This document shows positions 33,295 through 54,014 of a DNA stretch of 64,000 bases, piece by piece (within the stretch, counting starts at the first letter, position 1; each line of letters starts with the position of its first letter). Below the pieces are notes generated by a model, which ran no database searches, was not told where the DNA came from, and worked only from the letters and a program-made list of their open reading frames with translations. Where the stretch lies: the NCBI RefSeq assembly GCF_021412585.1, contig NZ_JAKCMI010000023.1:1-64000 (forward strand). The letters are read 5' to 3'. The translations under genes and the position numbers were made by a program. The DNA comes from Halomonas alkalisoli. Its GTDB lineage: Bacteria; Pseudomonadota; Gammaproteobacteria; Pseudomonadales; Halomonadaceae.

Positions 33295-34182
33295 ATGCGT
33301 ACACGAGCTTCCGGGCGGACCGTTGGAGGTCTGCGCTCCCTGTCGCTGCAGGCGCCAGCCGTCACGCTGCTGCTGATCTGGATGCTGATTCCGCTGGGCA
33401 TGACCCTGTGGTTCTCCTTCCAGCGCTACAACCTGCTGATGCCGGGCATGGAGCGGTTTGCCGGCTGGGAAAACTACGAATACCTGCTGACGGATCCCGC
33501 GCTGTGGTCCTCCATGGCCACCACCCTGGTGCTGGTGGGCTCGGTGCTGGCGATCTCGGTGATCGGTGGCACCCTGCTGGCGGTGCTCTACCAGCAGGAC
33601 TTCTTCGGTCGCGGCGTGGCTCGGGTGCTGGCAATCTCGCCCTTCTTCATCATGCCCACCGTCAGTGCCCTGGTGTGGAAGAACATGATGATGCACCCGG
33701 TCAACGGCGTGCTGGCCTGGTTCTCGGGACTCTTCGGCCTGCCCGCGGTGGACTGGTTCTCCAACTACCCTCTGCTGTCGATCATCATCATCGTCGCCTG
33801 GCAGTGGCTGCCGTTTGCCCTGTTGATCCTGCTCACCGCGATGCAGTCCCTGGACGACGACCAGGTCGAGGCGGCGCGCATGGACGGCGCCGGGCCGCTG
33901 GCGGTGTTCTTCTTCATCACCTTGCCGCACCTCAAGCGGGCGATCAGCGTCGTGATCATGATCCAGATGATCTTCCTGCTGACGATCTTTGCCGAGATCT
34001 ACGTCACGACCTCGGGTGGCCCCGGGCTTGCGACAACCAACCTGGCCTACCTCATCTATATCCGCGCGCTGCTGGAGTTCGATGTGGGGGGTGCCTCCGC
34101 CGGCGGGGTCATCGCCATCATCCTGGCCAATATCGTGGCGATCTTCTTGATCCGGATGGTCGCCAGGAACCTGGAAGACTGA
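33295..34182 (+). CDS. smoF: Polyol ABC transporter permease 1 (SmoF-like)
   Basis: The protein (295 residues) has six predicted transmembrane helices. The EAA loop EAARMDGAGPLAVFFFITLPHL contacts the ATPase. The typical MalF-like N-terminal helix LLLIWMLIPLGMTLWFSF is present. ATG 33295 is preferred over a GTG at 33283; neither has a strong ribosome site. It lies 72 bp after the binding protein and 32 bp before the second permease. Confidence 0.88.
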   Translation: MRTRASGRTVGGLRSLSLQAPAVTLLLIWMLIPLGMTLWFSFQRYNLLMPGMERFAGWENYEYLLTDPALWSSMATTLVLVGSVLAISVIGGTLLAVLYQQDFFGRGVARVLAISPFFIMPTVSALVWKNMMMHPVNGVLAWFSGLFGLPAVDWFSNYPLLSIIIIVAWQWLPFALLILLTAMQSLDDDQVEAARMDGAGPLAVFFFITLPHLKRAISVVIMIQMIFLLTIFAEIYVTTSGGPGLATTNLAYLIYIRALLEFDVGGASAGGVIAIILANIVAIFLIRMVARNLED

Positions 34183-34214
34183 TCCCTGCACGACACACGC
34201 AACGAGGTCACAAG

Positions 34215-35117
34215 ATGTTCAACAAGACACCCACCAGCGGCCCGGCAACGGCCGCGATGCCTCCGGCTCAGCAGGCGCTGGGCGCTCAGGGTATCGGCGC
34301 CGTGCTGGCGCGCCACCGGCGCCTCTGGCTGGCGCTGCTGGCCTGGACGATCACCTTCGTCATCTTCTTTCCGATCTTCTGGATGGTGCTGACCGGCTTC
34401 AAGACCGAGGCTCAGGCCATCGCCGACCCGACCCTGTTCTTCACGCCGACGCTGGACAGTTACGCGGCGGTGCAGGGGCGCGCCGACTACCTGAAGTTCG
34501 CCTGGAACAGCGTCTATGTCTCGTTCGGCTCGACGCTCCTGGCGCTGTTGATCGGCATCCCCGCGGCCTACTCGATGGCCTTCCTGCCCACCAAGCGCAC
34601 CAAGGGCACCCTGCTGTGGATGCTCTCCACCAAGATGCTGCCGCCGGTGGGCGTGCTGGTGCCGATCTACCTGATCTTCCGCGACCTGGGCATGCTCGAT
34701 ACGCGCATCGGCCTCACCGTCATCTACACCCTGATGAACCTGCCGATCGTGATCTGGATGCTCTACACCTTCTTCAAGGACCTGCCCAAGGACATCCTCG
34801 AAGCAGGGCGCATGGACGGTGCCAGCACCCTGCAGGAGGTCCTCTACCTGCTGATTCCGCTGACGCTTCCCGGCATCGCCTCCACCGGCCTGCTGTCAGT
34901 GATCCTAAGCTGGAACGAGGCGTTCTGGAGCCTCAACCTGACCTCTTCCCGCGCGGCACCGCTGACGGCCTACATTGCCTCCTTCTCCAGTCCCGAAGGC
35001 CTGTTCTGGGCCAAGCTCTCGGCGGCATCGACCATGGCGGTCGCGCCGATCCTGATCTTCGGCTGGCTCACCCAGAAACAGATGGTTCGCGGCCTGACCT
35101 TCGGCGCGGTCAAGTAA
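34215..35117 (+). CDS. smoG: Polyol ABC transporter permease 2 (SmoG-like)
   Basis: The protein (300 residues) is the second membrane subunit, MalG type. Six helices and the EAA loop EAGRMDGASTLQEVLYLLIPLTLP are clear, and the C-terminus LTQKQMVRGLTFGAVK is typical of the family. The N-terminal 30 residues are polar and Ala/Pro-rich. It lies 12 bp before the ATPase gene. Confidence 0.9.
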   Translation: MFNKTPTSGPATAAMPPAQQALGAQGIGAVLARHRRLWLALLAWTITFVIFFPIFWMVLTGFKTEAQAIADPTLFFTPTLDSYAAVQGRADYLKFAWNSVYVSFGSTLLALLIGIPAAYSMAFLPTKRTKGTLLWMLSTKMLPPVGVLVPIYLIFRDLGMLDTRIGLTVIYTLMNLPIVIWMLYTFFKDLPKDILEAGRMDGASTLQEVLYLLIPLTLPGIASTGLLSVILSWNEAFWSLNLTSSRAAPLTAYIASFSSPEGLFWAKLSAASTMAVAPILIFGWLTQKQMVRGLTFGAVK

Positions 35118-35129
35118 CAGGACATTCTC

Positions 35130-36272
<1,143 letters not shown>

Positions 36273-36285
36273 AGGAGCACGAGGC

Positions 36286-36969
36286 ATGCAGACCCTGATC
36301 TTTGACTGCGATGGCGTGCTCGTCGATAGCGAAGCATTGGCCGAAGAGACCCTGGCTGAGCGGCTTGGCAACTGGCTGCCCGACCTCGACCTGGAGCGGC
36401 TGCTCAGCCAGGCATTGGGCATGACCACGGCGGACATCCTCGATCACCTGGAACGACTCAGCCGTCACTCACTGCCGCCGGATGCGGCCGAGCACATCGA
36501 CTCGGCGATCGAAGCCCGGCTTGGCGCCGAACTCTGCGCCATCGCCGGCGCGGCTGAGGCGATCACGGCGATCGCCTTGCCCAAGGCGGTCGTCTCCAAC
36601 AGCCGCCGCAGCCGGGTGGTGGCATCGCTGGCCACCACGGGGCTCGACACGGTACTGGGCCAGGCGCCGATCTTCACCGCCGAGCAGGTCGAACGCCCCA
36701 AGCCCGATCCGGCCATCTACCGCCTGGCAGCCCGTGAGCTGGGTCTCGCACCCCGGGAGTGCCTGGTGGTCGAGGACAGCGTGGCCGGGGTCAGCGCCGC
36801 CCATGCCGCTGGCATGACCGTGATCGGCTTCACCGGAGCCAGCCATCTGGATGCGGGGCAGGGGGCGAGGCTGCTTCAGGCGGGTGCCTGGCAGGTGATC
36901 GATCGCCTCAGCGAACTCGAGGGATGGGTGAACGACTGGCAGCGAGCTGCCGACTCCATACAGCCATGA
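36286..36969 (+). CDS. HAD-superfamily phosphatase/mutase, polyol cluster
   Basis: The protein has 227 residues. Motif I FDCDGVLVDSEA, motif II VVSNSRR, motif III lysine in ERPKPDPAIY and motif IV VVEDSVAGVSAAHAAGM are all present. This is HAD subfamily IA, as in beta-phosphoglucomutase and sugar-phosphate phosphatases. HAD genes of this kind occur in polyol operons, where they may dephosphorylate dead-end sugar phosphates; this is inferred. It starts 13 bp after the ATPase gene with AAGGAG upstream. Confidence 0.88.
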   Translation: MQTLIFDCDGVLVDSEALAEETLAERLGNWLPDLDLERLLSQALGMTTADILDHLERLSRHSLPPDAAEHIDSAIEARLGAELCAIAGAAEAITAIALPKAVVSNSRRSRVVASLATTGLDTVLGQAPIFTAEQVERPKPDPAIYRLAARELGLAPRECLVVEDSVAGVSAAHAAGMTVIGFTGASHLDAGQGARLLQAGAWQVIDRLSELEGWVNDWQRAADSIQP

Positions 36970-36982
36970 CGAGATCCAAGAC

Positions 36983-37768
36983 ATGAAACTCAACGACAAG
37001 ACCGCGGTAGTCACCGGCGGCGCGCGCGGGATCGGCCTGGCCATCGCCCGGCGCTATCTCGACGAGGGGGCGGCGGTGGTCATAGCCGATATCGACCGGC
37101 TCGCCATCGACGAGGCCGTGGCCAGCCTCGCGCAGCACGCAGAGGCCTCCCGGGTGCTGGGGCTGCGCCTGGACGTCTGCGACAAGGGCTCCATCGATGC
37201 CATGGTCGAAGCGGTGAGCGAGCGCTTCGGCGGCATCGACATCCTGGTGAACAACGCCGCCGTCTTCGACATGGCGCCGGTGCTCGAGGTGACCGAGGCG
37301 AGCTACCACCGGCAGTTCGACGTCAACGTCAAGGGGCTCTTCTTCACGCTGCAGGCGGTGGCACAGGCCATGATCGCGCGGGGCCGGGGCGGCAAGATCA
37401 TCAACATGGCCTCCCAGGCCGGCCGCCGCGGAGAGCCCCTGGTCAGCATGTACTGCGCCACCAAGGCGGCGACCATCAGCCTGACCCAGTCCTGCGGACT
37501 GGCGTTGATCGCGCATGGCATCAACGTCAACGGGATCGCCCCCGGCGTGGTCGACACGCCGATGTGGGACGAGGTCGATGCGCTCTTCGCCCGCTATGAG
37601 AACCGGCCTCTGGGCGAAAAGAAGCGCCTGGTCGGCGAGGCGGTGCCCTACGGGCGCATGGGACGCCCGGAAGACCACGCCGGGGCGGCGGTCTTTCTTG
37701 CCTCGGATGACAGCGACTACGTGGTGGCCCAGACGCTCAACGTCGATGGCGGCAACTGGATGAGCTGA
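36983..37768 (+). CDS. smoS: SDR-type sorbitol (L-iditol 2-) dehydrogenase (SmoS-like)
   Basis: The protein (261 residues) would oxidise D-sorbitol to D-fructose with NAD+. TGGARGIGL binds the cofactor, NNAAVFDM is the structural Asn motif, and the catalytic residues are Ser (NMASQAGRRG), Tyr and Lys (SMYCATKAATISLTQS). The segment around DTPMWDEVDALFARYENRPLGEKKRLVG is characteristic of the sorbitol/galactitol dehydrogenase subgroup. It lies 13 bp after the HAD gene. Confidence 0.9.
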   Translation: MKLNDKTAVVTGGARGIGLAIARRYLDEGAAVVIADIDRLAIDEAVASLAQHAEASRVLGLRLDVCDKGSIDAMVEAVSERFGGIDILVNNAAVFDMAPVLEVTEASYHRQFDVNVKGLFFTLQAVAQAMIARGRGGKIINMASQAGRRGEPLVSMYCATKAATISLTQSCGLALIAHGINVNGIAPGVVDTPMWDEVDALFARYENRPLGEKKRLVGEAVPYGRMGRPEDHAGAAVFLASDDSDYVVAQTLNVDGGNWMS

Positions 37769-37776
37769 ACCGCGCA

Positions 37777-37808
37777 GGCTGACGAGACAGCGTCAGGCTT
37801 GCGCCCAG
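37777..37808 (+). promoter_or_regulatory. Imperfect hairpin between smoS and the kinase gene
   Basis: CTGACG and CGTCAG, extended by partly paired GCGCAGG and CTTGCGC, form an imperfect stem-loop in the 92-bp gap after smoS. No T-tract is present. It may be an mRNA-stability element within the operon. Confidence 0.35.
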
Positions 37809-37860
37809 CGTCGGGCAGGCGATGATGACGGTTCGTCAGCCCGACTGTGAGGACATTGTC

Positions 37861-38484
37861 ATGTATCCCGAGCTTCAGGATATCGCACGCCAGATCATCG
37901 AGGCCGCCGCCGGTCGGCGGCGGTACATCGTCGCCCTTGCCGGCCCCCCCGGCAGTGGCAAGTCGTATCGCTCCGAGCTGCTGTGCGATGCCATTGCAGC
38001 GCTGCGGCCCGGCGATGCCGTGGTGGTGCCGATGGATGGCTACCATTTCGACAACGCCGTGCTCGAGCCGTCTGGCGAGCTGCCGGTCAAGGGTGCGCCG
38101 CACACCTTCGACGCCGATGGCCTGCGGGTGGATCTCGAGCGCATCCGGCGCGGCGACCGGGACGTGGCCGTGCCGGTATTCGATCGCCCGCTGGACCTGG
38201 CCCGGGCCGGCGGGCGGCTGATTTCCCGGGACCACCGCATCGTGCTGGTCGAGGGCAACTATCTGCTGCTCGATGAAGCGCCCTGGCACGAACTTCACGG
38301 GCTCTTCGACCTGACGATCCTGCTCGATGTCGACGACGAGGTGCTCGAACAGCGCCTCTTCGAGCGCTGGCTGGACATGGGGCAGGAGCCGGCCAGTGCC
38401 CTGGACAAGGCCCGCCACAAGGACATGCTCAACGCGCGGCTGGTGAAGTCGCGCTCCATTTCGCCCGACCTGGTGTGGCGATGA
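37861..38484 (+). CDS. P-loop sugar kinase of the phosphoribulokinase/FrcK type
   Basis: The protein has 207 residues. Walker A is GPPGSGKSYRSELL, followed by PMDGYHFDN and VFDRPLDLA and the LVEGNYLLLDE strand, as in the uridine kinase/panthothenate kinase-like group that includes fructose-transport kinase FrcK. ATG 37861 has GAGGAC upstream; an in-frame ATG at 37822 is possible. In this cluster the probable job is phosphorylation of fructose made by the sorbitol and mannitol dehydrogenases. This is inferred. Confidence 0.8.
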   Translation: MYPELQDIARQIIEAAAGRRRYIVALAGPPGSGKSYRSELLCDAIAALRPGDAVVVPMDGYHFDNAVLEPSGELPVKGAPHTFDADGLRVDLERIRRGDRDVAVPVFDRPLDLARAGGRLISRDHRIVLVEGNYLLLDEAPWHELHGLFDLTILLDVDDEVLEQRLFERWLDMGQEPASALDKARHKDMLNARLVKSRSISPDLVWR

Positions 38485-38532
38485 CCACGCCGAGGTCCGA
38501 CAACGCCGAGTAATGCTTGGCCGGGAGACTTC

Positions 38533-40020
38533 ATGACCGTTCTCGACAACCAGCACCTTGTCGAAATCAATGCCGCGGTGGCGTCGCCACGCTACCCGAG
38601 GCAGGCGCTCACGCCGGGCATCGTCCATATCGGGGTGGGTGGTTTTCACCGCGCTCACCAGGCCATGTACCTGGACGACCTGATGAACCGCGGCGAGGCG
38701 CTGGACTGGGGGATCGTCGGGGTCGGTGTGATGCCGGGCGATCGGCGCATGCAGCAGGTGCTGGCCGCTCAGGACCACCTCTATACGCTGATGGTCAAGC
38801 ACCCCGATGGCCACCTCGAGCCCCGCGTGATCGGCAGCATGATGGATTATCTGTTCGCCCCGGACGACCCCGAGGCGGTGATCGAACGAATGGCCGATCC
38901 CGCCATTCGCATCGTCTCGCTGACCGTCACGGAGGGTGGCTACAACTTCCATCCGGTCACCGGGGCGTTCGACCTCGACAACCCCGATGTACGCCATGAC
39001 CTCGCCAATCCGTCGGCGCCCACCACCAGCTTCGGCCTGGTCACCGAGGCGCTGGCCCGGCGTCGCGCGCGTGGCCATGGGCCTTTTACCCTCATGTCCT
39101 GCGACAACATCCAGGGCAATGGCGAGGTGGCCCGGCGCATGTTCACCGCCTACGCCCGGGCTCGCGACCCGGAGCTGGGCGCCTGGGTGGCCTCGGAAGT
39201 ACCGTTCCCCAATGCCATGGTCGACCGCATCACCCCGGTCACCACCCCCGAGGACATCGACGAGCTGGCCGCGCGTTTCGGTGTCGAGGACGCCTGGCCG
39301 GTGGTCTGCGAGCCCTTCACCCAGTGGGTGCTGGAGGACCGCTTCGTGGCGGGTCGGCCCCCCTTCGAGTCGGTCGGTGTGCAACTGGTAGAGGACGTCG
39401 AACCCTACGAGCTGATGAAGCTGCGCCTGCTCAATGCCAGCCATCAGGCGCTCTGCTATTTCGGCTACCTGGCCGGCTACCGCTACGCCCATGAGGTGTG
39501 CCGGGACCCGCTGTTCGTCGACTTCCTGCTCGCGTACATGCGCCACGAAGGCTCGCCGACGCTGCCGCCGGTGCCCGGGGTGGATCTCGAGCAGTACCGA
39601 ACGACCCTGATCGAGCGCTTCGCCAACCCCCAGATCAAGGACACCCTGGCGCGGCTGTGCGCCGAGAGCTCGGACCGTATCCCCAAGTGGCTGTTGCCGG
39701 TGATCCGCGAGCAGCTCGCCAGGGGCGGGGAGATCCATCGGGCGGTGGCGGTGGTGGCAAGCTGGGCGCGCTATGCCGAGGGTGTCGACGAGCAGGGCGC
39801 GCCCATCGCGGTCGTCGATCGCCTGAAGGGTGAGCTGATGCGGATCGCCGCCGGCAACCGCGAGCATCCGGCGGCCTTCATCGAGAACCGCGAGCTGTTC
39901 GGCGACCTGGCCGAGGAGCCGCGTTTCCGCGAGGCCTACCTGGCCACGCTGGCATTGCTGCACGAACGCGGCGCACGCGCTACCCTCGAATCACTGGCTC
40001 AGTCGAAAGGGACGACATGA
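38533..40020 (+). CDS. mtlK: Long-chain mannitol/arabinitol 2-dehydrogenase
   Basis: The protein (495 residues) is a polyol-specific long-chain dehydrogenase that oxidises mannitol to fructose or D-arabinitol to D-xylulose. Signatures are the N-terminal IVHIGVGGFHRAHQAMYLDD, the catalytic Lys region FPNAMVDRITPVTTPED, and YELMKLRLLNASHQALCYFG. Its length is normal for MtlK/Dsf-type enzymes. It overlaps the xylulokinase start by 4 nt (ATGA), which links its product to xylulose phosphorylation. Confidence 0.92.
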   Translation: MTVLDNQHLVEINAAVASPRYPRQALTPGIVHIGVGGFHRAHQAMYLDDLMNRGEALDWGIVGVGVMPGDRRMQQVLAAQDHLYTLMVKHPDGHLEPRVIGSMMDYLFAPDDPEAVIERMADPAIRIVSLTVTEGGYNFHPVTGAFDLDNPDVRHDLANPSAPTTSFGLVTEALARRRARGHGPFTLMSCDNIQGNGEVARRMFTAYARARDPELGAWVASEVPFPNAMVDRITPVTTPEDIDELAARFGVEDAWPVVCEPFTQWVLEDRFVAGRPPFESVGVQLVEDVEPYELMKLRLLNASHQALCYFGYLAGYRYAHEVCRDPLFVDFLLAYMRHEGSPTLPPVPGVDLEQYRTTLIERFANPQIKDTLARLCAESSDRIPKWLLPVIREQLARGGEIHRAVAVVASWARYAEGVDEQGAPIAVVDRLKGELMRIAAGNREHPAAFIENRELFGDLAEEPRFREAYLATLALLHERGARATLESLAQSKGTT

Positions 40021-41516
40021 TGTATATCGGGGTGGACTGTGGCACCCAGAGCACCAAGGTCGTGGTGCTGGATGCCGAACGGGGCAGGCTGCTGGCGGAG
40101 GCGAGCCGGCCACATCATCTCTGCGAGGGCGATGATGGCCGCCGTGAACAGGCGCCGGCCGAATGGATCGAGGCGCTTCGCGGCGCCTTTCACGAAGCGG
40201 TGGCCCGGGCGGGGATCGACCCCCGGGCGATTCGCGGTATCGGTGTCTCCGGCCAGCAGCACGGCATGGTGGCGCTGGACGAACGCGATGATCCGGTCCA
40301 TCCCGCCAAGCTGTGGTGCGATACCGAGACCGCGGCGCACAATGCCGCCCTGATCGAGCGGCTGGGCGGCGAGGCCGGCTGCCTCGACGAACTCGGCCTG
40401 GTGCTGCAGACCGGCTACACGGCCTCCAAGCTGGCCTGGCTGCGCGAGACGCGGCCCGACGCCTACCGCCGAATCACCTGCCTGTTGCTGCCCCACGACT
40501 ATCTCAATTTCTGGCTGACCGGCGAGCGGACCACCGAGGCCGGCGATGCCTCCGGTACCGGCTACTTCGATACCCTACGGCGCATCTGGAACCGCGATGT
40601 CTTCGCCACCATTGCCCCGGAGCTCGACCCCGACCGGGTGCTGCCGCGGCTGATCGACTCCCGCGAGCCGGCCGGTGTGGTGCGTCCCGATGTGGCGCGC
40701 GAACTGGGGCTCGGCCAAGGCGTATTGGTCTCCAGCGGGGGTGGCGACAACATGATGGGGGCGATCGGCACCGGCAACATCCGGCCCGGCCTGGTCACCC
40801 TGAGCCTGGGCACTTCGGGGACCGTCTGTGCCTATTCCCGGGAGCCGTTGGCCAGCGGCGACCCGCTGGTGGCGAACTTCTGCTCCAGCAACGGTGGCTG
40901 GCTGCCGCTGGTGTGCACCATGAACGTGACTTCCGCCACCACCCGGATGCGAGAGCTCTTCGGACTGGACCTGGCGGCGTTCGGCGACTGTATCGAGCGG
41001 GCGCCGATCGGAGCCGGCGGCGTGACGGCGCTGCCGTTCTTCAACGGCGAGCGAGTGCCCATGCTGCCCGAGGCCTCGGCCAGCTTCCTCGGCATGACCA
41101 GCCTCAATACCCGTCGCGAGAATCTCTGCCGTGCCGTCATGGAGGGGGCGACCCTGGGGCTGCGCTATGGGCTCGAGCGGATGGGGGCGATCGCCGACGG
41201 GGCCAGCCAGATCCGCCTGATCGGCGGCGGCGCCAGGAGCGAGGCCTGGCGCCGGATGGTCGCCGATGCCACCGGCACCCAGGTGGTCTGCCCCCAGATT
41301 ACCGAGGCGGCGGCGCTGGGTGCGGCGCTGCAGGCGCTGTGGTGCCACCGATCGGCCGAAGGCGAGGCCGCGAGCCTGGAGGCGATTTGCTCCAGGCTGG
41401 TCAGCCTCGACGAACGCTCGCTGGTCGACCCGGAGCCCGAACGTGTCGAGGCCTATGACGACGTGTACCGACGCTACCGTCGGGCGCTGGCCGACCGGCA
41501 CGGCATCCAGGCCTGA
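40017..41516 (+). CDS. xylB: Xylulokinase
   Basis: The protein (499 residues) phosphorylates D-xylulose for entry to the pentose-phosphate pathway. FGGY-family motifs are the N-terminal YIGVDCGTQSTKVVVLDA, GIGVSGQQHGMVALD, the catalytic Asp in AGDASGTGYFD, and the C-terminal IRLIGGGARSEAWRRMVAD. It overlaps the mannitol/arabinitol dehydrogenase by 4 nt. Together they indicate that arabinitol or xylitol is a substrate of the cluster besides hexitols. Confidence 0.93.
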   Translation: MMYIGVDCGTQSTKVVVLDAERGRLLAEASRPHHLCEGDDGRREQAPAEWIEALRGAFHEAVARAGIDPRAIRGIGVSGQQHGMVALDERDDPVHPAKLWCDTETAAHNAALIERLGGEAGCLDELGLVLQTGYTASKLAWLRETRPDAYRRITCLLLPHDYLNFWLTGERTTEAGDASGTGYFDTLRRIWNRDVFATIAPELDPDRVLPRLIDSREPAGVVRPDVARELGLGQGVLVSSGGGDNMMGAIGTGNIRPGLVTLSLGTSGTVCAYSREPLASGDPLVANFCSSNGGWLPLVCTMNVTSATTRMRELFGLDLAAFGDCIERAPIGAGGVTALPFFNGERVPMLPEASASFLGMTSLNTRRENLCRAVMEGATLGLRYGLERMGAIADGASQIRLIGGGARSEAWRRMVADATGTQVVCPQITEAAALGAALQALWCHRSAEGEAASLEAICSRLVSLDERSLVDPEPERVEAYDDVYRRYRRALADRHGIQA

Positions 41517-41555
41517 ATCCCGTTCGTTCGCATGACAACCCAACAGGAGCAAACC

Positions 41556-42509
41556 ATGACGTCTCGGCTCGACAATCTCAAGCGCCACTCACTGGTGGTG
41601 GCCGATACCGGCGATCTGGAGGCGATCCGGCGCTATCGGCCACAGGATGCCACCACCAACCCTTCGCTGCTGCTGAAGGCCTTCGAGCTGCCCGGCTACC
41701 AGGCGCTGATCGATTCGGAGCTGGCCGCGGTCAGGGCCGAGGGGGGCGATCGGCAGCAGAAGGTCGAGCACGCCGTGGACCGGCTCGCCGTGGCCAAGGG
41801 GGTGGAGATCTCCCGGCTGGTGCCCGGCCGGGTCTCCACTGAGGTGGCCGCCCGGCTCTCCTTCGATACCCAGGCCAGCATTCGCAAGGCCCACGAGCTG
41901 ATCGAGCTCTACGGCCGGCATGGCGTGGGGCCGGAGCGGGTGCTGATCAAGCTGGCCTCCACCTGGGAGGGTATCCGCGCCGCCGAGGCGCTGGAGCGCG
42001 AGGGCATCAACTGCAACCTGACCCTGCTGTTCAGCGACGCCCAGGCCCAGGCCTGTTTCGATGCCGGCGTGTTCCTGGTTTCGCCTTTCGTCGGCCGGGT
42101 CACCGACTGGTACAAGAAGGAGACCGGGCAGGACTATGCGCCCGACGAGGATCCTGGCGTGCAGTTCGTGCGCGGTGTCTGCGAACGTGCCGGCAGCGGT
42201 GGGTTCGACACCGTGGTGATGGGCGCAAGCTTCCGCACCGTCGGCCAGGTGCTGGCGCTGGCCGGCTGCCCACGCTTGACCATCTCGCCGGCGCTGCTGG
42301 AGGAGCTGGCGGCGAGCGAAGGCGAGGTTCCGCGCCGGCTGGAGTTGGCTCCTGCACAGGGCGAAGTCCCCGGGCGGATCAGCGAAGCCGAGTTCCGCTG
42401 GGGACACAATCAGGACGCCATGGCCAACGACAAGCTGGCCGAGGGCATCCGGCGCTTCGCCGAGGACCAGGCAGTCCTGGAGAGACGAATTCACGAGCGT
42501 TTGGCATAG
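41556..42509 (+). CDS. tal: Transaldolase (TalB type)
   Basis: The protein (317 residues) transfers dihydroxyacetone units in the pentose-phosphate pathway. [14 protein letters not shown] at the N-terminus, [13 protein letters not shown], the Schiff-base Lys in [12 protein letters not shown], and CNLTLLFS are diagnostic. AGGAG 7 nt before ATG 41556 decides this start over the ATG at 41532. It closes the polyol operon and would channel xylulose-5-phosphate and fructose-6-phosphate. Directly downstream lies the mosaic scar. Confidence 0.93.
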
Positions 42510-42547
42510 CGCGAGACGCACCTGCGCTCGACCAGCCGGTCGCGCGC

Positions 42548-42642
42548 TCAGAAGCTCGCCAGCTGCCACACATCAAAGGCGGGTTCCTCATAGGGGTGAG
42601 CGGCTCTCAGGGCCGCCACCGCTTCCTCCATAAAATCATCCT
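42548..42642 (-). pseudogene. Fragment: 3' end of a YqfO/NIF3-like gene
   Basis: Positions 42561-42642 match 46162-46243, the 3' end of the intact gene at 46149, with 6 mismatches in 82 bp, same orientation. The minus-strand frame is preserved (EEAVAALRAAHPYEEP) and ends VWQLASF before its own stop at 42548, instead of VWKLETL. Conservative changes suggest that it came from a homologous gene of another strain, not from decay of a local copy. Confidence 0.85.
42561..42642. repeat. Direct repeat of 46162-46243 bracketing the second TRAP operon
   Basis: The two 82-bp copies have the same orientation and share a central run of about 50 identical bases. They lie either side of the TRAP genes at 43174-46096, about 3.6 kb apart. 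Confidence 0.88.
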
Positions 42643-42744
42643 GACATCCACCCTGCCGGGATGGGGCAACCATTCCTTGCCGTTCAGCAACACGCGACTC
42701 CCCCGTGTGGCCACCGGCACCACCGATATCTGGGCCTTGGCGGC
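42643..42744 (-). pseudogene. Fragment of an ACP/AMP-ligase/acyltransferase gene
   Basis: 102 bp matches 47463-47564 in the intact fusion gene, with about 12 mismatches and no gaps. The minus-strand frame still encodes KAQISVVPVATRGSRVLLNG, a conservative variant of the acyltransferase segment. It abuts the NIF3-like fragment directly and joins the NUDIX fragment through a 7-bp microhomology (TGGCGGC). Confidence 0.85.
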
Positions 42745-42813
42745 AACGTCTTTCCGCTGCATATCAGCGATATTACCGCCGAGGATCGCGAGCGCTACTT
42801 TGGCTCGGCCTGA
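42739..42813 (+). pseudogene. Fragment: duplicated 3' end of the NUDIX gene (right direct repeat)
   Basis: 75 bp is identical to 30681-30755 except one base and ends at the same TGA. It lacks the rest of the gene. The near-identity, against about 88-93 percent for the two adjacent fragments, means it was duplicated recently or is kept identical by recombination. It is the right boundary of the polyol island. Confidence 0.9.
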
Positions 42814-43173
42814 TGGGGAAATGTGGTTGCTACGGCCAATGGTGATGGGCATTTTTGCGTCAGGATGTCCATGATCTGGATCAGTTTTTTGATGTGAGCG
42901 GTGCGCCGTTGCCGTCCCATATCCGGTTGCGACCTACAGGCATGTGCCGGCGACATCGGCGCCGGTAGCGTTGGTGATGGCTGTTTCGGTACTTCGCCCC
43001 GTTCGTGGTGGTTCTCAAGTCGCATGCTGTGTTGTGATGGAGATATTGCACGGTGACGGTCGTTTTTTAGGGTGTTTTTTACCAATTTTACTGTCGATGT
43101 GGGTGAATTGACCGCTGTTCTGGCCGGATGTAAACAGGATCTCTCCAAACACAACAACCCGAGAGAGACTGTC

Positions 43174-44190
43174 ATGACACTCGAGCACAAGGGCTCCATC
43201 CTTCCCGCCGTTACCGCCTTGTCTGCCGCCATTTTCCTGCTGGGAGCATCGATGAATGCCGATGCCACTACCCTGCGCCTGGCCACCGATTCTGGCACCA
43301 AGGGGTCGCCTGCCGGCGACGCCTTGGATCGCTGGGGGCAGTTGATCGAGGAGAAATCCGATGGAGAAATCAAGGTCAATGTTTTCTATCAGAATGAGTT
43401 GGGCGGGCAACAGGAGCTCTTCGACCTGCTGATTTCCGGTGACGTACACATGATGCTGAACTGGCCGATGACCTCTTACGATCGCCGTATCGGGGTTATC
43501 TATACGCCCTACATGACGCTCTCCTGGGAGGAGGCCTTCGATGCCTACAGCCCCGGGGGCTGGGTCAACGAGCTTCTCGGTGATATCTATGCCGATATCG
43601 GCCTCAAGTTCTTCGGTCCCTGGCCGGAGGGCTTCAATGGTGTGGCTTCCCGAGGCAAGTACGCGCTGACCATGGAAGAGGCGGGTGACCTGGCAGTAAG
43701 AACCATGACAGTGTTCCCCGCGCCTCAGACCATGCAAGCGTTGGGCTACCAGACTGCGGCTATTGATTGGGGCGAGGTTTATACCGCATTGCAGACCGGA
43801 GTGGTCGATGGTGAGGCGGGCAACGTCATCTACTGGCCTTACGAATACTTCCGCGACATTCTCGATTACTACGTCCACACCAAGCACTTCTTCATGACCG
43901 GCATCCTGACCATGAACATGGATGCCTTTGAGTCGCTGAGCGAACCCCACCAGCAGGTGGTGACCGAGGCGGCCGAGGCGATCATGAACCAGCAGTTCGT
44001 AGCCGCTCAGGAGCAGGATGAGTATTACATCGCCAAGGCACAGGAAGATGGCATGCAGTACTTCGAGCTCTCCGACGAGCAGCTTCACGAATTCGCGCTG
44101 CGTGCTCGAGAGCAGGTGTGGCCGCTGATGGGCCGTGAAATTGGCCAGGAGATCATGGATGTGATCCGCGCCAATGCCACGCCGCTTTGA
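43174..44190 (+). CDS. TRAP transporter substrate-binding protein (DctP family), second system
   Basis: The protein (338 residues) has a signal peptide (ALSAAIFLLGASMNADA) followed by TTLRLATDSGTKGSPAGDALD. The ligand-binding Arg lies in LAVRTMTVFPAPQTM, and EVYTALQTGVVDGEAGNVIYWP is the usual helix. It differs clearly from the dctP at 20161 and has host-like GC. ATG 43174 follows GAGAGAG and starts the signal peptide; the frame opens 34 codons earlier. A monocarboxylate or sugar-acid ligand is likely. No catabolic gene is linked to it. Confidence 0.92.
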   Translation: MTLEHKGSILPAVTALSAAIFLLGASMNADATTLRLATDSGTKGSPAGDALDRWGQLIEEKSDGEIKVNVFYQNELGGQQELFDLLISGDVHMMLNWPMTSYDRRIGVIYTPYMTLSWEEAFDAYSPGGWVNELLGDIYADIGLKFFGPWPEGFNGVASRGKYALTMEEAGDLAVRTMTVFPAPQTMQALGYQTAAIDWGEVYTALQTGVVDGEAGNVIYWPYEYFRDILDYYVHTKHFFMTGILTMNMDAFESLSEPHQQVVTEAAEAIMNQQFVAAQEQDEYYIAKAQEDGMQYFELSDEQLHEFALRAREQVWPLMGREIGQEIMDVIRANATPL

Positions 44191-44207
44191 GCGGTGCTGG
44201 TGATCAG

Positions 44208-44795
44208 ATGTCAACGCAGGTCGGCTCGGATTCGGGTCGGCCTGCCCGGTGTGGGGTCTTTACCATGACGACATTTCTGACAGGGCTGGACCGGGCGGTC
44301 GGTGGGCTGCTCAACTTTATTGCCTTTGCCGCAAGCCTGCTGGTCGTGGGCCTTATGATCTTCCTAATCCTGGCGCGCTATGTATTCGGATGGTCGCTGG
44401 TTGGTACCTTGGAGCTGGTCATGCTGGCCGGTATGTGGCTGTACATGACGGGTGCGCTGATCGCCAGTCGCAAGAATGAGCATCTGGTGGTGGACTTTCT
44501 CGAGTTGCAGATCCGTGATTCCCGCATTCGCGCGCTACACAAGGTCCTGGTGTCGGTAATCGTGGCGGTGATCTGCGCCTGCTTCGTCTACTGGTCCTAC
44601 CGAATGCTCTCATGGGGTCTGGTGCGCCCGCAGCGCACCCCGGAGTTGGCCATTCCGTTGTGGATTTCACAGGCGTCGATCATGGTCGCGAGCGTGGGCT
44701 GTTTTTGCTACGCGCTGCGCGATGTGCTCGTAGGTATTCGCGCGTTCCAAGAAGTGCCGCGCGGGTCCCGGTTGGAAGCGGAAGGAGAGCAGTAA
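44208..44795 (+). CDS. TRAP transporter small permease (DctQ family), second system
   Basis: The protein has 195 residues from ATG 44208; ATG 44265 (MTTFLTGLDRAVGG) is an equally reasonable start closer to the first helix. Four hydrophobic helices are seen, starting FIAFAASLLVVGLMIFLILARYV, with the family motif LELVMLAGMWLYMTGALIASRKNEH. The stop TAA overlaps the start of dctM by one base. It follows the binding protein by 17 bp. Confidence 0.88.
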   Translation: MSTQVGSDSGRPARCGVFTMTTFLTGLDRAVGGLLNFIAFAASLLVVGLMIFLILARYVFGWSLVGTLELVMLAGMWLYMTGALIASRKNEHLVVDFLELQIRDSRIRALHKVLVSVIVAVICACFVYWSYRMLSWGLVRPQRTPELAIPLWISQASIMVASVGCFCYALRDVLVGIRAFQEVPRGSRLEAEGEQ

Positions 44796-46096
44796 TGGAA
44801 GGTTTGTTTGCAATTCTGCTGCTGCTGGTCCTGATGGGGCTGGGTGTGCCTATCGCCTGGTCTTTCGCCGGGGTGCTGGCGTACCTGGCGTTCGTCTACG
44901 ACGCCAATTTCAATACCTTAATGATGCAGGGCTTCCGCTCGGTGGATTCGGTGATCCTGATCGCGCTGCCGCTGTTCGTGCTGACTGGTTATCTGATGCA
45001 AAGTGGTGGCATCGCCACGCGACTGGTGGTGTTCATCGAAACTCTGGTAGGCAGACGGCGCGGTGGAATGGGAGCATCGCTGGTGCTGGCCTCGGGCATA
45101 TTCGGCGCCATTGCCGGGACTGCCACCGCGGCGGTCGCGTCGATCGGGACTATCATGGTCGGGCCCTTGGAGCAGCGTGGCTATCCACGCGGCTACTCTT
45201 CCGCGCTGCTGGGCATCTCGTCGCTGCTGGGCATACTGATTCCGCCCTCGATTACCATGATACTGTTTGCGGTGGTCACACGGCAGTCGGTGGCAGCGCT
45301 GTTTGCCGCTACCGTTGGCCCGGCACTGCTGCTGATCATCGGGCTGATCCTGGTCAATCGTTTCGCATGCGGGCGGTTGTTCCAGGAGGTGGCAGGCCAG
45401 GAGAGCCTCACTGGGGCCAAGCCTGTCACACGTACCCGCGCCAGCCTCAACGCCTTTCCAGCGCTGTGTCTGCCGGTGATCATTCTCGGTGGCATCTACG
45501 GTGGAGTCTTCACGCCCACCGAGGCGGCGGCAGTGGCGGCCTTTGCAGCCATCGTCATCGGTTTTCTGGTCTACCGCGACCAGTCGCTGAGGAGCTTCTA
45601 TCGTAGCGTGATCGCGGCCTCGGAGACCACCGGCTCGATCATCCTGATCTTGCTATTCTCTTTCATGATCGGTCGGATACTGGCCGCCGAGCGGGTACCC
45701 CAAGAACTCACTGAGCTGATTACGCTGCTGATCAGCGACCCGCTGCTGATCCTGATCACGGTGAACATCTTCCTGATTCTCGCCGGGGCCATGCTCGACG
45801 ACGTCTCGGTGACGGTGGTCATCGCGCCGCTGTTCCTGCCTCTGATGGTACAGACCGGCGTCGACCCAGTGCATTATGCCGCCATCGTCGCTTGTTCGGT
45901 GGTGATTGGCGCCAACAGCCCGCCGGTGGCGCCAATCCTCTACATGGCCTGTCGCATCGGGCGGGTATCAATCCACAAGACCTTCTCGCCAGCGCTGATG
46001 CTGATTGCCGTGGTGGGTATTCCGGTGATGCTGATTACCACCTTTGTGCCTGAACTGTCGCTGTTCCTGCCGCGCCAGCTAGGCTTTATCCGCTGA
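44795..46096 (+). CDS. TRAP transporter large permease (DctM family), second system
   Basis: The protein (433 residues) has about 12 helices. Family motifs are LPLFVLTGYLMQSGG, SGIFGAIAGTATAAVASIGTIM, GISSLLGILIPPSITMILFA, GGVFTPTEAAAVAAF and GANSPPVAPILY. GAAGGAG precedes the ATG. The operon ends here; a hairpin separates it from the convergent NIF3-like gene. It is the distal gene of the segment bracketed by the 82-bp direct repeats. Confidence 0.92.
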   Translation: MEGLFAILLLLVLMGLGVPIAWSFAGVLAYLAFVYDANFNTLMMQGFRSVDSVILIALPLFVLTGYLMQSGGIATRLVVFIETLVGRRRGGMGASLVLASGIFGAIAGTATAAVASIGTIMVGPLEQRGYPRGYSSALLGISSLLGILIPPSITMILFAVVTRQSVAALFAATVGPALLLIIGLILVNRFACGRLFQEVAGQESLTGAKPVTRTRASLNAFPALCLPVIILGGIYGGVFTPTEAAAVAAFAAIVIGFLVYRDQSLRSFYRSVIAASETTGSIILILLFSFMIGRILAAERVPQELTELITLLISDPLLILITVNIFLILAGAMLDDVSVTVVIAPLFLPLMVQTGVDPVHYAAIVACSVVIGANSPPVAPILYMACRIGRVSIHKTFSPALMLIAVVGIPVMLITTFVPELSLFLPRQLGFIR

Positions 46097-46106
46097 ACCG
46101 GAGGCT

Positions 46107-46145
46107 GCAAGCGCCGCAGTGGATCAGTCCCTCTGTGGCGCTTGC
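46107..46145. terminator. Bidirectional-type hairpin between dctM and the NIF3-like gene
   Basis: GCAAGCGCCGCAG (46107-46119) pairs with CTGTGGCGCTTGC (46133-46145) over 13 positions with one G-T wobble and a 13-nt loop. It lies 10 bp after the dctM stop and 3 bp from the stop of the convergent gene. No long T-tract is present. Confidence 0.6.
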
Positions 46146-46148
46146 GCT

Positions 46149-46460
46149 TCACAGCGTTTCCAGCTTCCAAACATCGAAGGCGGGTTCCTCATAGGGGTGA
46201 GCGGCTCTCAGGGCCGCCACCGCTTCCTCTATGAGATCATCCTCGCAGACCAGCTCCACCTTGAGCTCCTCCACCTGCTCCAGGTCGCCGACCTGGCCGA
46301 TATGCGGGCTGGCACCGTCCAATGGGCGGAACTGCCCCGTACCCGGCGTCTGGAAGCAGCAGGCCTCGTAGTTGCCTATTCTCCCCGCGCCGGTCGCGAA
46401 CACGGCTTCCTTGACGGCTTCGGCGTCCTCGACGGGGACGTAGAACGCTAACTTGTACAT
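46149..46460 (-). CDS. YqfO/NIF3-like small PII-fold protein
   Basis: The protein has 103 residues. MYKLAFYVPVEDAEAVKEAVFATGAGRIGNYE-type N-terminus, a central FRPLDGASPHIG and the ending AHPYEEPAFDVWKLETL match the stand-alone NIF3/YqfO-related family (COG3323), of unknown biochemical role. A GAGGAG-like site precedes ATG 46460. Its 3' 82 bp is duplicated at 42561-42642. It is divergent from the fasciclin gene across a control region with TTGTACAA-type palindromes. Confidence 0.85.
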   Translation of the reverse strand: MYKLAFYVPVEDAEAVKEAVFATGAGRIGNYEACCFQTPGTGQFRPLDGASPHIGQVGDLEQVEELKVELVCEDDLIEEAVAALRAAHPYEEPAFDVWKLETL

Positions 46461-46587
46461 AGCTTGATCTCCTCTCTTTTCCGTCTCTTCTCTGCTCTCT
46501 CTTCCTGCTCTTCTCTCGTTAGCTCGCTGTGATGGCAGCGACGGCACTGACAGGAGTGTGGTGTCGGTGGGGCGAGCGAAAAAAATG

Positions 46588-46722: not shown

Positions 46723-47232
46723 ATGAATGCCTTTACCGTCACAGCACCCAAGTGGATCGGCGCCAGCCTTCTCGGCCTTGCACTCGCGACCTCAGCCCAT
46801 GCCGGTAGCCATGATCATGCCCATGACGATATCGTCGATACTGCCATCGGCGCCGGGCAGTTCGAAACCCTGGTCGCAGCGGTTCAGGCGGCCGAGCTTG
46901 TCGAGGTACTCAAGGGTGAGGGGCCCTTCACGGTTTTCGCACCGACCGATGAGGCCTTCGCGGCACTGCCCGAAGGTACCGTAGACACGCTGCTGCTGCC
47001 CGAGAACCAGGCCCAGCTGCAGGCGATACTCACCTATCACGTGGTACCTGGAAACGTGATGGCCGCAGAGGCCATGGAACTGGACAGCGCCACCACCGTG
47101 CAGGGCCAGGACATCACCATCACCACCATGGATGGCAGCGTGATGATCAACGACGCCACCGTAGTCCAGGCCGATATCGAGGCCAGCAACGGGGTGATCC
47201 ATGTGATCGATGGCGTTCTGATGCCGGAGTGA
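46723..47232 (+). CDS. Secreted fasciclin (FAS1)-domain protein
   Basis: The protein has 169 residues: a signal peptide ([16 protein letters not shown]), a short His/Asp stretch ([13 protein letters not shown]) and one FAS1 domain. The hallmark H1 motif [17 protein letters not shown], followed by LTYHVVPG, and the H2-like motif [14 protein letters not shown] are clear. Such proteins act in adhesion or are induced by stress or light in some bacteria. AAGGAG precedes the ATG. A strong intrinsic terminator follows. Confidence 0.92.
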
Positions 47233-47336: not shown

Positions 47337-50195
47337 TCAAGCCCGGCTGGCTCCCAGGTCCGGTTCGCCGGATTCCGCCACGATGAACGTTCGGGCCTCG
47401 TTGCGCAGCCTGACCGCTTCGGACCAGTCCGAACTTCGGGGCTGGAGCGGGGCGCCCACCACGACATCCACCGTGCCGGGATGGGGCAGCCACTCCTTGC
47501 CGCGCAGTAACACGCGACTCCCCCGAATGGCCACCGGTACTACCGCTACCTGGGCCTTGGCGGCCGAGACGAAGGCGCCCATATGGAAGTCCTGCACCCC
47601 GGGCTCCGGCCGAAAGGTTCCTTCGGGAAAAAATGCCGGCGACCCGCCTTCCCGTGCGGTCTGAAGCACCTTCTCGGTGGTGTGGTTGGCCTCCCGCGTA
47701 TTGTCGCGCTCGACGAACAGCACGCCCATGCGCTCGAGTACGAACCGGGTGAGAAACGGCTGACTGAGTTCGGCCTTGGCCAGATAGTGAAAGCCGTACG
47801 GAAACACGGCCGTCAGAATCAGCGCGTCCAGGTAGCTGGCGTGATTGGCCACCAGCACGCAGGGCTCGCGGTGGGGAAAGCGGGCCAGGCCATGTGCCCG
47901 GGTACGAATGCCCGTCAACAGCGAGGCGATGCGGGCAATATAGTGGGCGACTCGCCAGCGCCAGGCGAGCCGGGGCAAGGGCAGGGCGAGGAGGGCGACC
48001 AGCGCCATGGCAATGCCGAAGATGGCCCAGGCATAGCCGGCATAGAGCCATTCGCCGGCTCGGCTGGCGCCATGGCGCCAGCGCTGCAAGGCCGAGCGTA
48101 GCGCCAGCCCGGTGACCTGTCGCCAGACGGGCGCCTGGCCCTTTTCCAACTGCCCGCTGCGGTAGCGCTCTGCCGTGGCACCGCGGCGAATCTTGCCGCT
48201 CGAGGTCTTCAGCACGCCATGGGGTGGCACCAGGCGTATGTCGTCGGGCGGGAGGTTGACGATATCCACCGTTACGCTGGCGATCTCATGGGTGATGGCC
48301 TCGCGCTGCATCGCGTCGTCGACATGGGTCTCGGCCACCACGACCAGTTCCTCGATACCGCTTTCGGCATTGGGATTGCCGAATACCGCCACGCAGCCCT
48401 TTCTGATCCCCTCAAGACCGCCGATGGCCTCCTCGAGATCGTAGGGATAGATGTTGCGCCCACCGCGAACCAGGACATCCTTTCGCCGGCCACTGAGGTG
48501 GATGTCACCATCGGCGAGATAGCCCCTGTCCCCGGTGCGTAGCCACTCGCCGTGGTACAGCTTGCGGCTCTCCTCGGCGTTATTGAAGTAACCCTGGGTG
48601 GCGGAGGGGCCGCGAAATTCGATGTCGCCTTCATGACGTTCAGGCAGCGCTTCCCCCTGTGGGTCGACGATACGAACCGAGTAGCCGGGTAGGGGCGGGC
48701 CGCAGTTGACGAAGGTCTGGGCGGCTTCGGGATCCGGTTCCGGCCGGGCCTCGCCGGTGGTGGCGAAGACCTCGCGGTGGACGGCGTCGAGGATCACGCC
48801 GCGGCCGGGCGTGGCCACGCAGAGCCCGACGGCGGCCTCGGCCAGCCCGTATACCGGCATCAGGGCCTCCTGGCGCAGCCCGCAGGGCGCCAGCGTCTCG
48901 GCAAAACGCTCGAAGGTGCGAGCGCTGACCGGCTCGGCGCCGTTGAAGGCGATGCGCCAACTGCTCAGGTCCAGCGCCTCCAGCTGTTCCGGGCGAGCTG
49001 ACCGAAGGCAGAGTTCGTAGCCGAAATTGGGCGACCCGGCGATCGTGCCCCGGTGGCGCTGGATCAGCTCGAGCCAGCGCAGCGGGTGCGACAGGAACGA
49101 GAGCGGCGACATCACCACCAGCGGGATGGCGTAATAGAGGCTGGCGAGCCAGGCCGCGATCAGCCCCATGTCATGGTAGAGCGGCAGCCAGCTGACGAAC
49201 ACGTCCTCGGGCGTGGCTTCCAGCCGCTTGCCCATGGCGCGGATATTGGCCAGCAGCTGCGCATGGGTCAGCATGACCCCCTTGGGATCGCCGGTACTGC
49301 CTGAGGTGTACTGCAGCAGCGCCAGGCTCGAGCCCTCCGGTGTCATGGCCGCCGCGGTGTCACTCCCGTCGCAGAGTTCCGCCACCGTCACGATGGCCTC
49401 GAGATGCGGCGCGTCTGCGCGCAGCAGGTGGGCGACACGTCGCGCCTCGGGAACGGTGACCAGGACCTCCGCTCCGGCGTTGGTCAGAATGCGGCCATGG
49501 CGCCGCAGGTGCTCCTCGAGCTGTGCCGGCCGTGCCGGCGGGTAGATCGGTACGGGCACCGCACCGGCGCGAAGAATGCCCAGGAAGGCGATGAAGTAGT
49601 CCGGTGAGGTCGGCAGCATCAGGGCGACCCGGTCGCCGGCCTCGACGCCCCGGGCCAGCAGCGCTGCGGCGATGTCTCGGCCGCCCCGGTCGAGTTCTCC
49701 GTAGCTCAGCGTCCGGGGCTCGTCCTCATCGCCGTAGATGAACAGGTGTGGCCGCTCGGGATGGCGTTCCAGGTGCCAATCCATGGCCGCATTGAGCGTC
49801 TCGGCGCTTTCCGGCTCGCCCTCCACTGGCTCCAATGGGGTGGTGGGAGTGGCGGTCGGTTCCTGTGTCGCCTCCGCCACCGGGTCGGCGGTGGCATCCG
49901 CGTCGGCGGCCTTGCCACGGGCTCGTTGCAGCGCATCCAGCAGCGCGGCGGGTGTCTCCGCCATCAGGGCTTCTTCGGGCAGCTTGACGTCGAAGGCGTG
50001 TTCGATTCGCAGGAGCAGCTCGGAGCGGGCCAGACTGTCCAGGCCGAGATCCCGGTCCAGCCGCGACTGCAATGACGGGGAGCGTGGCTCAGCCCCGTCC
50101 GGCTGCAATTCGCGGGCCATCTCTTCAACGATGGCGAGCAGCCGCTGCTGTGGCGTCCTGCCCTGCGGCGGCTCGCGGTTGGAACGTTCCGTCAT
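47337..50195 (-). CDS. ACP / acyl-AMP ligase / 1-acyl-glycerol-phosphate acyltransferase fusion
   Basis: The protein has 952 residues with three modules. An N-terminal acyl-carrier domain carries DLGLDSLARSELL, whose Ser takes phosphopantetheine. The AMP-binding ligase at about 130-700 has LLQYTSGSTGDPKGVML, YGLAEAAVG, LRTGDRGYL and a C-terminal KTSSGKIRRG, of FAAL/acyl-ACP synthetase style. The C-terminal PlsC domain has NHASYLDALIL and FFPEGTFRPEPG. It could activate a fatty acid, load it on its own ACP and transfer it to a lyso-lipid. ATG 50195 has GAGAGG upstream; the frame opens 12 codons earlier. Part of the PlsC coding region (47463-47564) has a divergent copy in the 42.6-kb scar. Confidence 0.88.
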   Translation of the reverse strand: MTERSNREPPQGRTPQQRLLAIVEEMARELQPDGAEPRSPSLQSRLDRDLGLDSLARSELLLRIEHAFDVKLPEEALMAETPAALLDALQRARGKAADADATADPVAEATQEPTATPTTPLEPVEGEPESAETLNAAMDWHLERHPERPHLFIYGDEDEPRTLSYGELDRGGRDIAAALLARGVEAGDRVALMLPTSPDYFIAFLGILRAGAVPVPIYPPARPAQLEEHLRRHGRILTNAGAEVLVTVPEARRVAHLLRADAPHLEAIVTVAELCDGSDTAAAMTPEGSSLALLQYTSGSTGDPKGVMLTHAQLLANIRAMGKRLEATPEDVFVSWLPLYHDMGLIAAWLASLYYAIPLVVMSPLSFLSHPLRWLELIQRHRGTIAGSPNFGYELCLRSARPEQLEALDLSSWRIAFNGAEPVSARTFERFAETLAPCGLRQEALMPVYGLAEAAVGLCVATPGRGVILDAVHREVFATTGEARPEPDPEAAQTFVNCGPPLPGYSVRIVDPQGEALPERHEGDIEFRGPSATQGYFNNAEESRKLYHGEWLRTGDRGYLADGDIHLSGRRKDVLVRGGRNIYPYDLEEAIGGLEGIRKGCVAVFGNPNAESGIEELVVVAETHVDDAMQREAITHEIASVTVDIVNLPPDDIRLVPPHGVLKTSSGKIRRGATAERYRSGQLEKGQAPVWRQVTGLALRSALQRWRHGASRAGEWLYAGYAWAIFGIAMALVALLALPLPRLAWRWRVAHYIARIASLLTGIRTRAHGLARFPHREPCVLVANHASYLDALILTAVFPYGFHYLAKAELSQPFLTRFVLERMGVLFVERDNTREANHTTEKVLQTAREGGSPAFFPEGTFRPEPGVQDFHMGAFVSAAKAQVAVVPVAIRGSRVLLRGKEWLPHPGTVDVVVGAPLQPRSSDWSEAVRLRNEARTFIVAESGEPDLGASRA

Positions 50196-50350
50196 TCGAC
50201 ACCTCTCGTCATGCCTCCCAGAGTCGTGCACGGGGGGGTATCGTTACTGTAGGAGTTTGTGCGCCGGGATGTATAACGCAAACTCGGTCTGCTGCGCTTG
50301 CGTGGGTGGCCGAGGCTCCTAGGGGTTGGCAATCAATGGAGGGGAAGATC

Positions 50351-51713: not shown

Positions 51714-51738
51714 CTCTTCCCGGGCCAGGGGCCGGCGG

Positions 51739-52179
51739 CTACCAGGCCTTGTAGGGCAGGAACTTGCCGTTCAGCGTTAGTAGCACCCGGTCACCCTTGG
51801 GGTCCTCGATCTTGTCGACGTCCATGGTGAAATCGATGGCGCTCATGATGCCGTCGCCGAACTTCTCCTGGACCACGTCCTTGAGGGTTTCTCCGTAGAC
51901 GCCTACGACCTCATAGAGGCGATAGATGAAGGGGTCCTGGGGAATGGCCTCGTCCCAGGCCTTGGTCGGGAAGGCAGCCAGGGCCTCGGCGACTTCGGTA
52001 TCGACCTCGAGGGCATCGCAGAGCTTGTGGGCCACCTCGGCGCTGGCACTGTTCATGCCATAGCAGGTCGAGGCGACCCATACCGGTGACATGCCGACGG
52101 CCTTGCCGATCTCGTCCCAGCTCATCTTCTTGCGTGCCTTGGCGGCGAGCAGGGTATGGCGCATTTCGAGCTTATCCAT
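51739..52179 (-). CDS. cynS: Cyanase (cyanate hydratase)
   Basis: The protein (146 residues) converts cyanate and bicarbonate to ammonia and CO2. The N-terminal helical domain (LLAAKARKKMSWDEIGKAVG) and the C-terminal catalytic domain are of normal length. The active-site residues Arg and Glu lie in YRLYEVVGVYGETLK and Ser in GIMSAIDFTMDV. It is the last gene of the importer operon and overlaps the ATPase gene by 8 nt, so uptake and hydrolysis of cyanate are tied. It allows cyanate to serve as nitrogen source or to be detoxified. Confidence 0.95.
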   Translation of the reverse strand: MDKLEMRHTLLAAKARKKMSWDEIGKAVGMSPVWVASTCYGMNSASAEVAHKLCDALEVDTEVAEALAAFPTKAWDEAIPQDPFIYRLYEVVGVYGETLKDVVQEKFGDGIMSAIDFTMDVDKIEDPKGDRVLLTLNGKFLPYKAW

Positions 52180-53134: not shown

Positions 53135-53150
53135 GTCTCTCTCCTGGAGG

Positions 53151-54011: not shown

Positions 54012-54014
54012 GGT

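Follow-up and report, generated by a model that had tools for sequence, protein, structure and literature searches.

A patchwork of three gene fragments, about 260 bases long and lying between a transaldolase gene (end 42509) and dctP (start 43171), is almost certainly the seam at which two alternative alleles of one variable slot were joined end to end. Judged from their matches in relatives, the NIF3-like and acyltransferase fragments would be the right flank of an allele carrying a polyol cluster (P), and the NUDIX fragment the left flank of an allele carrying a TRAP transporter (T). All positions refer to the window, the whole stretch of 64,000 nucleotides that was analyzed. The scar itself spans 42559-42813, and it and the spacer in front of it are made up as follows.

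42510-42558, spacer from the transaldolase gene to NIF3'; of P-allele type, matching G048 and not the window's own TRAP-NIF3 spacer
42559-42642, minus strand, NIF3': the last ~28 codons of a NIF3-like gene, corresponding to 46160-46243 (78 of 84 bases identical, ungapped alignment)
42643-42744, minus strand, acyl': an internal piece of an acyltransferase fusion gene, corresponding to 47463-47564 (90 of 102 identical)
42738-42744, TGGCGGC: 7-bp microhomology at the acyl'/NUDIX' joint, common to the acyl and NUDIX parents
42738-42813, plus strand, NUDIX': the 3' end of a NUDIX gene, with one mismatch in 75 against 30681-30755

Ungapped alignment reproduced the three blocks that a first-pass annotation had picked out by inspection, with the same mismatch counts (6 in 82, 12 in 102 and 1 in 75) and each block in the orientation of its parent. 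All six mismatches of NIF3' fall inside the 82-bp part reported earlier, and the NUDIX' alignment can be extended to 42735-42821 against 30677-30763, with 82 of 87 bases identical. The TGGCGGC noted at the second junction is there as well, and the interpretation as a recombination scar with a microhomology joint was borne out. Shared sequence of at least 7 bp occurred in 15 of 20,000 random joints between the acyl and NUDIX parent genes. The first joint, NIF3'/acyl' (42642/42643), has 0 bp of microhomology.

Searching the scar's own genome returned four matches, the scar itself plus the parents of its three blocks, with E values of 4e-32 to 4e-29 for the latter. The composite scar occurs as one contiguous copy in its own genome and in none of 89 genus relatives, so that among the 90 genus genomes it does not behave as the fixed multi-copy repeat family that would have spoken against a recombination scar. 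A search of a contig database, from which the own genome was possibly left out, gave 0 matches to the NIF3'/acyl' joint pattern. A repeat family or mobile-element footprint was rejected, finding no support in the own-genome, genus (90) or family (275) searches. The scar gave no Rfam match at the gathering score as an RNA element, and no terminator-like or promoter-like site was found in it.

The parents lie on either side of the scar in the window, among the following genes.

30198-30755, plus strand, NUDIX hydrolase gene (Pfam Zn_ribbon_Nudix and NUDIX); left border of the slot, with 30681-30755 as parent of NUDIX'
30771-42509, plus strand, polyol cluster (P cargo): SorC-type regulator, sugar ABC transporter, HAD-type protein, SDR, kinase, mannitol/arabinitol-type dehydrogenase, xylulokinase and transaldolase; collinear with G048
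42814-43170, T-allele sequence from the NUDIX' stop to DctP, within the match to G059 described below
43171-46096, plus strand, TRAP transporter DctP-DctQ-DctM (T cargo; Pfam DctP, DctQ, DctM)
46149-46460, minus strand, intact NIF3-like gene, right border of the slot and parent of NIF3'; phmmer match to the NIF3-related protein 2gx8, E 3.4e-25
46723-47232, plus strand, fasciclin-domain gene (Pfam Fasciclin), between the two right-flank parents and absent from the scar
47337-50231, minus strand, AMP-ligase/carrier/acyltransferase fusion gene (Pfam AMP-binding, PP-binding, Acyltransferase), with 47463-47564 as parent of acyl'

Within the P cargo, the transaldolase is assigned by Pfam, and L-iditol 2-dehydrogenase and xylulokinase models score above cut-off; the matches for the regulator, binding protein and dehydrogenase fall below it. 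The permeases, ATPase, HAD protein and small kinase are presumably what the look of their translations suggests. The intact NIF3-like gene matched no Pfam or NCBIfam model at the thresholds used. None of the nine window slot proteins scanned matched an integrase or transposase above cut-off; the P cargo regulator gave a weak match to an IS630 transposase (17 bits against a cut-off of 100).

The NUDIX and NIF3-like genes are convergent, and in the relatives that were read they are either adjacent or parted by cargo. Past the NIF3-like gene and, in many genomes, the fasciclin gene comes the acyltransferase fusion gene on the right. A mosaic of three different genes, as had been described, is therefore correct as to the three parents, but rather than being unrelated, these genes flank a single variable slot on its two sides. 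We searched 90 genus genomes and took the locus from nearly all that had a NUDIX match. The slot was measurable in 72 of the 89 relatives, giving 73 slots with the window; the other 17 relatives were left unclassified (7 had no match, 8 had a match of NIF3 type and no other, and in 2 the locus lay at a contig end). Thirty-two of the 73 slots are empty (18-228 bp), 23 hold P, 5 hold T, 4 hold P+T (the window, G028, G007 and G083) and 9 hold something else. Conserved border genes thus enclose variable content, as in a hotspot, and these comparisons indicate that the genus has a gene-gain slot bounded by the NUDIX and NIF3-like genes. The four close genomes alone show three states. The window has P+T, G048 has P, and G016 and G063, whose left flanks are 98% (the closest) and 95% identical to that of the window, have empty slots of 25-26 bp. 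Both kinds of locus to which the first-pass annotation had pointed as support were therefore found, empty sites without the insert in G016 and G063, and in G048 a polyol cluster followed by the NIF3-like gene and then the acyltransferase. Next to one empty slot, that of G069, the NIF3-like gene (L050:17350-17651) is read in two frames owing to a frameshift.

The two halves of the window correspond to two different alleles, each of which is found on its own, and collinear, in another genome. Positions 25374-42642 are collinear with the P allele of G048 in two matches (95.4 and 94.6%) with one indel of ~100 bp between them, and positions 42735-46477 form a single 3743-bp match to the T allele of G059 (92.8%). 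Both collinearities stop at the seam. Because the halves follow a P allele and a T allele in this manner, we read the scar as the meeting of a P right flank with a T left flank. The bases past the stop of the intact NUDIX gene are of G048 type and those past the NUDIX' stop are G059-like; conversely, the NIF3 tail in the scar is of G048 type and the intact copy beside the TRAP genes is of G059 type. The best match of NIF3' among 158 loci is G048 (94.8% over 97 bp), and acyl' is 88.2% identical to G048, which equals its identity with the window's own gene. No donor closer than G048 was found for the scar pieces in these 158 loci, among which many genomes are represented twice.

Polymerase template switching inside one genome, from NIF3 to acyl to NUDIX and without a second allele, would draw on parents that all lie within 20 kb and on the 7 bp shared at one switch. 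It would leave unexplained the P-type NIF3 tail of the left piece, which is absent from the window's intact NIF3 gene, as well as the run of the right piece into T-type, G059-collinear sequence. We consider it very improbable.

NIF3' and acyl' had been taken for imports from a diverged relative, with conservative residue changes. That description holds for NIF3' (K/Q, I/M and L/F, with four of the six changes at third positions) but not for acyl', in which 5 of 34 residues differ from the own gene, the changes fall on codon positions 4:3:5, and an R has become N at a residue that is R in 14 of 14 distinct proteins aligned. Owing to this flat codon-position pattern and the change at an invariant R, the acyl' differences look more like decay after capture than like a diverged working donor gene, a candidate source that the same two features weaken. 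Nor is import well supported as a necessity for the two pieces together, since the scar agrees with either G048 or G016 at all 8 sites in NIF3' and acyl' at which these two differ, and the private changes in acyl' are decay-like. Such private changes, found in none of the relatives compared, number 3 in 84 for NIF3', 10 in 102 for acyl' and 1 in 75 for NUDIX'. They are unevenly spread, with 10/102 in acyl' against 4/159 in the rest (Fisher P 0.02). Two further changes in the scar (46176 and 47541) are common to the more distant G059, and given these the scar pieces may contain some foreign input.

Fourteen private changes in ~261 bp, compared with 4-fold divergence over seven flank genes (77/1378 to G016, 153/1331 to G048), would date the seam roughly to the split from G048 and before the split from G016, by what is a rough decay clock. 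G016 lacks the scar despite splitting later; either its slot was replaced afterwards or the clock is too rough. In the left flank (25380-30755), 215 sites follow G016 versus 66. After 30374 the informative sites are mixed (four in which the window equals G048, two in which it equals G016), with no sharp switch to mark a left crossover in NUDIX, and the site pattern of the right flank is mixed too. We tried to tell from these patterns whether P had entered T or T had entered P; neither direction is singled out. Also in the left flank, 29700-30755 is ~98% identical to G059 and the rest ~70-95%, which points to a short tract of recombination next to the slot.

The alleles, their order, the seam and its microhomology can be read off the sequences directly. 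To account for them, we propose a joint between alleles through an event like homology-facilitated illegitimate recombination (HFIR), combined with a deletion, and regard this explanation as a whole as probable. One illegitimate, microhomology-aided joint at TGGCGGC would have linked a P and a T chromosome, with the P chromosome running from the left to a point inside its acyltransferase gene and the T chromosome continuing from the last 75 bp of NUDIX onward. On the empty-site map of G016 the joined points would be ~1.5 kb apart. The product of such a joint would be NUDIX-P-NIF3-fasciclin-acyl'/NUDIX'-T-NIF3-fasciclin-acyl. RecA recombination in the homologous flanks would have anchored the rest of the incoming DNA, as in recombination of the HFIR type. 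An internal deletion, which we would place after the joint, could then have trimmed the inter-cargo spacer to NIF3'-acyl'. It would have removed ~1.2 kb on the window or G048 map, or ~0.4 kb if the chromosome had no fasciclin gene, as in G059. The outcome may have been kept by selection since NUDIX, both cargos and the NIF3-like gene are intact.

Not every observation sits well with this proposal. The 0-bp first joint needs a separate step, and the excess of private changes in acyl' is poorly explained by one event and later decay. G016, although closest on the left flank, is without the scar that the decay would put before its split, and P+T occurs without any strong relic in G007 and G083. 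A Ku gene, which Ku-type end joining at the 0-bp joint would call for, was sought with PF02735, which had 0 matches in the own genome; the control matched in 1 of 14, B. subtilis. ComEC- and DprA-type competence families are present, and are little informative since the controls match E. coli too.

For the HFIR-like route itself the evidence is evenly balanced. In transformable species, HFIR joints mostly carry 3-10 bp of micro-homology and recipient DNA is generally deleted, according to passages of one study (PMC3240628). Here NUDIX, P, T and the NIF3-like gene are all present, and there are second copies of the NUDIX 3' end and of parts of NIF3 and acyl. Because no deletion of recipient DNA is apparent, we do not file the scar as a proven HFIR event. 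The microhomology is not a firm mark of HFIR either, as the portion of that study on E. coli conjugation gives 3 of 4 apparent HFIR clones without homology at the joint (PMC3240628).

With no loss seen and a short flank duplicated, a circularised fragment and a single crossover would give the same result. A P fragment would have become circular when its acyl' and its NUDIX end were joined at TGGCGGC, and it would have entered the T chromosome in Campbell fashion through a single crossover within the 3' end of NUDIX. The final map would be identical, with the homologous end partly duplicated. Such a circle would keep only ~75 bp of homology, which is short for RecA recombination, and the single difference in 75 sites between NUDIX' and the intact NUDIX does not locate the crossover. 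There is a precedent in the E. coli conjugation experiments, where 56 of 60 clones gave the partial duplication PCR product (14 were sequenced), attributed in the passages concerned to circularised DNA, against the 4 apparent HFIR clones (PMC3240628). We judge this insertion unlikely. It is also conceivable that unequal crossing-over between P and T duplicated a long stretch and that two later deletions emptied the interval from NIF3' to NUDIX'. Transformation can make tandem duplications by unequal crossing-over, as described in part of another study (PMC3784515), and a large tandem merodiploid fits the order and orientation of the pieces. It requires one duplication and two deletions, one of them ending in the NUDIX coding end, and no further duplicated flank was found in the window slot with queries that reached 3.0 kb into the left flank and 3.5 kb into the right. 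We find this course distinctly unlikely.

The allele fusion can be looked for in other genomes by way of relics of the flanks. We searched 41 slots of >600 bp against their own flanks, using up to 3.5 kb on the right and, on the left, 3 kb in three genomes and 0.7-1.7 kb in the others. Strong flank relics (E below 1e-15) were present in 2 of the 41 slots, those of the window and G028. Matches in other slots were weaker (best E 8e-11) and short or on the opposite strand, and a control with reversed sequence gave one match in each of two slots. The relic of G028 (L112:4666-4779) consists of 101 bp of the NIF3 end, 77% identical to its own intact NIF3 and containing two stops, between the polyol and TRAP clusters. 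To its left the sequence is the P allele of G087; to its right, past a blurred zone of ~15 bp, it is the T allele of G053, and the intact NIF3 lies behind the TRAP genes. On this evidence the G028 relic is a separate, decayed seam of the same design as that in the window. Two NIF3-end matches in one genome were found in the window genome (G000) and G028 alone among 275 family genomes. The window genome also has two NUDIX-end matches, as do, weakly, four members of a different genus (G241, G242, G248 and G254). That the window genome is a draft of 47 contigs raises the thought of an assembly artefact at short repeats. The blocks of 75-102 bp carry private substitutions unseen in the relatives compared, and G028 has a seam built in the same way, so an artefact is scarcely credible.

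In G007 and G083 no strong flank relic was found in the slot, and by eye the T upstream region begins within ~20 bp of the transaldolase stop. Therefore, seams are not the sole route to P+T. The relic-free joint of these two genomes could be an older P+T arrangement owing nothing to fusion. By sequence, the P+T state comprises at least three different joints (the window; G028; G007 and G083 alike), always in the order P then T. It is perhaps the case, and we suggest this only tentatively, that the slot has been enlarged again and again as alternative alleles were fused end to end through illegitimate joints, and that additive fusion rather than swapping is general for integrase-free hotspots, with flank fragments as the fossil record.

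Further variable stretches are present elsewhere in the window. A second metabolic island of ~10.6 kb (~13460-24055) breaks collinearity with G048, G016 and G063; by the look of their translations, we take its genes to encode a GntR-type regulator, a DUF1537-type kinase, an iron-type dehydrogenase, DapA-like and PdxA-like proteins, a TRAP transporter and an SDR. The matched stretches of G048 and G016 do not include ~51714-57680, and the left part of this region, 51738-55303, presumably an ABC transporter of nitrate/taurine type from its look, is 94% identical to G059, above the neighbouring DNA.

Among the papers that a search of open-licence literature listed, none dealt with this locus. The scar is a well-resolved natural case of a known process, and it would show how a hotspot can keep both cargos rather than swap one for the other. 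Border-gene recombination, which has served to explain hotspots without mobile elements, by itself exchanges contents. In this locus, comparison base by base brings out the seam, both parent alleles, an empty site and, in another species, a second seam, so that the additive route can be read straight from the sequence. Fragments of border genes within slots offer a simple search signature for other genomes.

Among known systems, HFIR in transformable bacteria and in E. coli conjugation combines homology on one side with an illegitimate joint on the other, as far as the passages of that study go (PMC3240628), and the scar resembles it in its homologous flanks and in a probable joint of this kind with 7 bp of microhomology. 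It differs in that no coupled deletion of recipient DNA is seen here, the flank is partly duplicated, and the event is inferred from genomes rather than observed. The T6SS immunity-gene arrays of Vibrio cholerae, whose stacked build in Vibrio has tentatively been put down to something like HFIR, share the placing of new cargo beside old at a fixed locus where relics of earlier alleles remain; in the parts of that report drawn on here, the cargos are effector/immunity genes and the old effector is displaced (PMC5361080), whereas in the window two whole metabolic cargos stand together and the relic is border sequence. For E. coli, a portion of one report ascribes most small variable segments to illegitimate recombination (PMC2884548). 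Many hotspots are without recognisable mobile elements, and their flanking core genes recombine often. Like the slot described here, they have conserved border genes, empty sites and alternative cargos, but the model offered for them is double homologous recombination in the borders (PMC5635113), whereas the window holds tandem cargos with border fragments between them.
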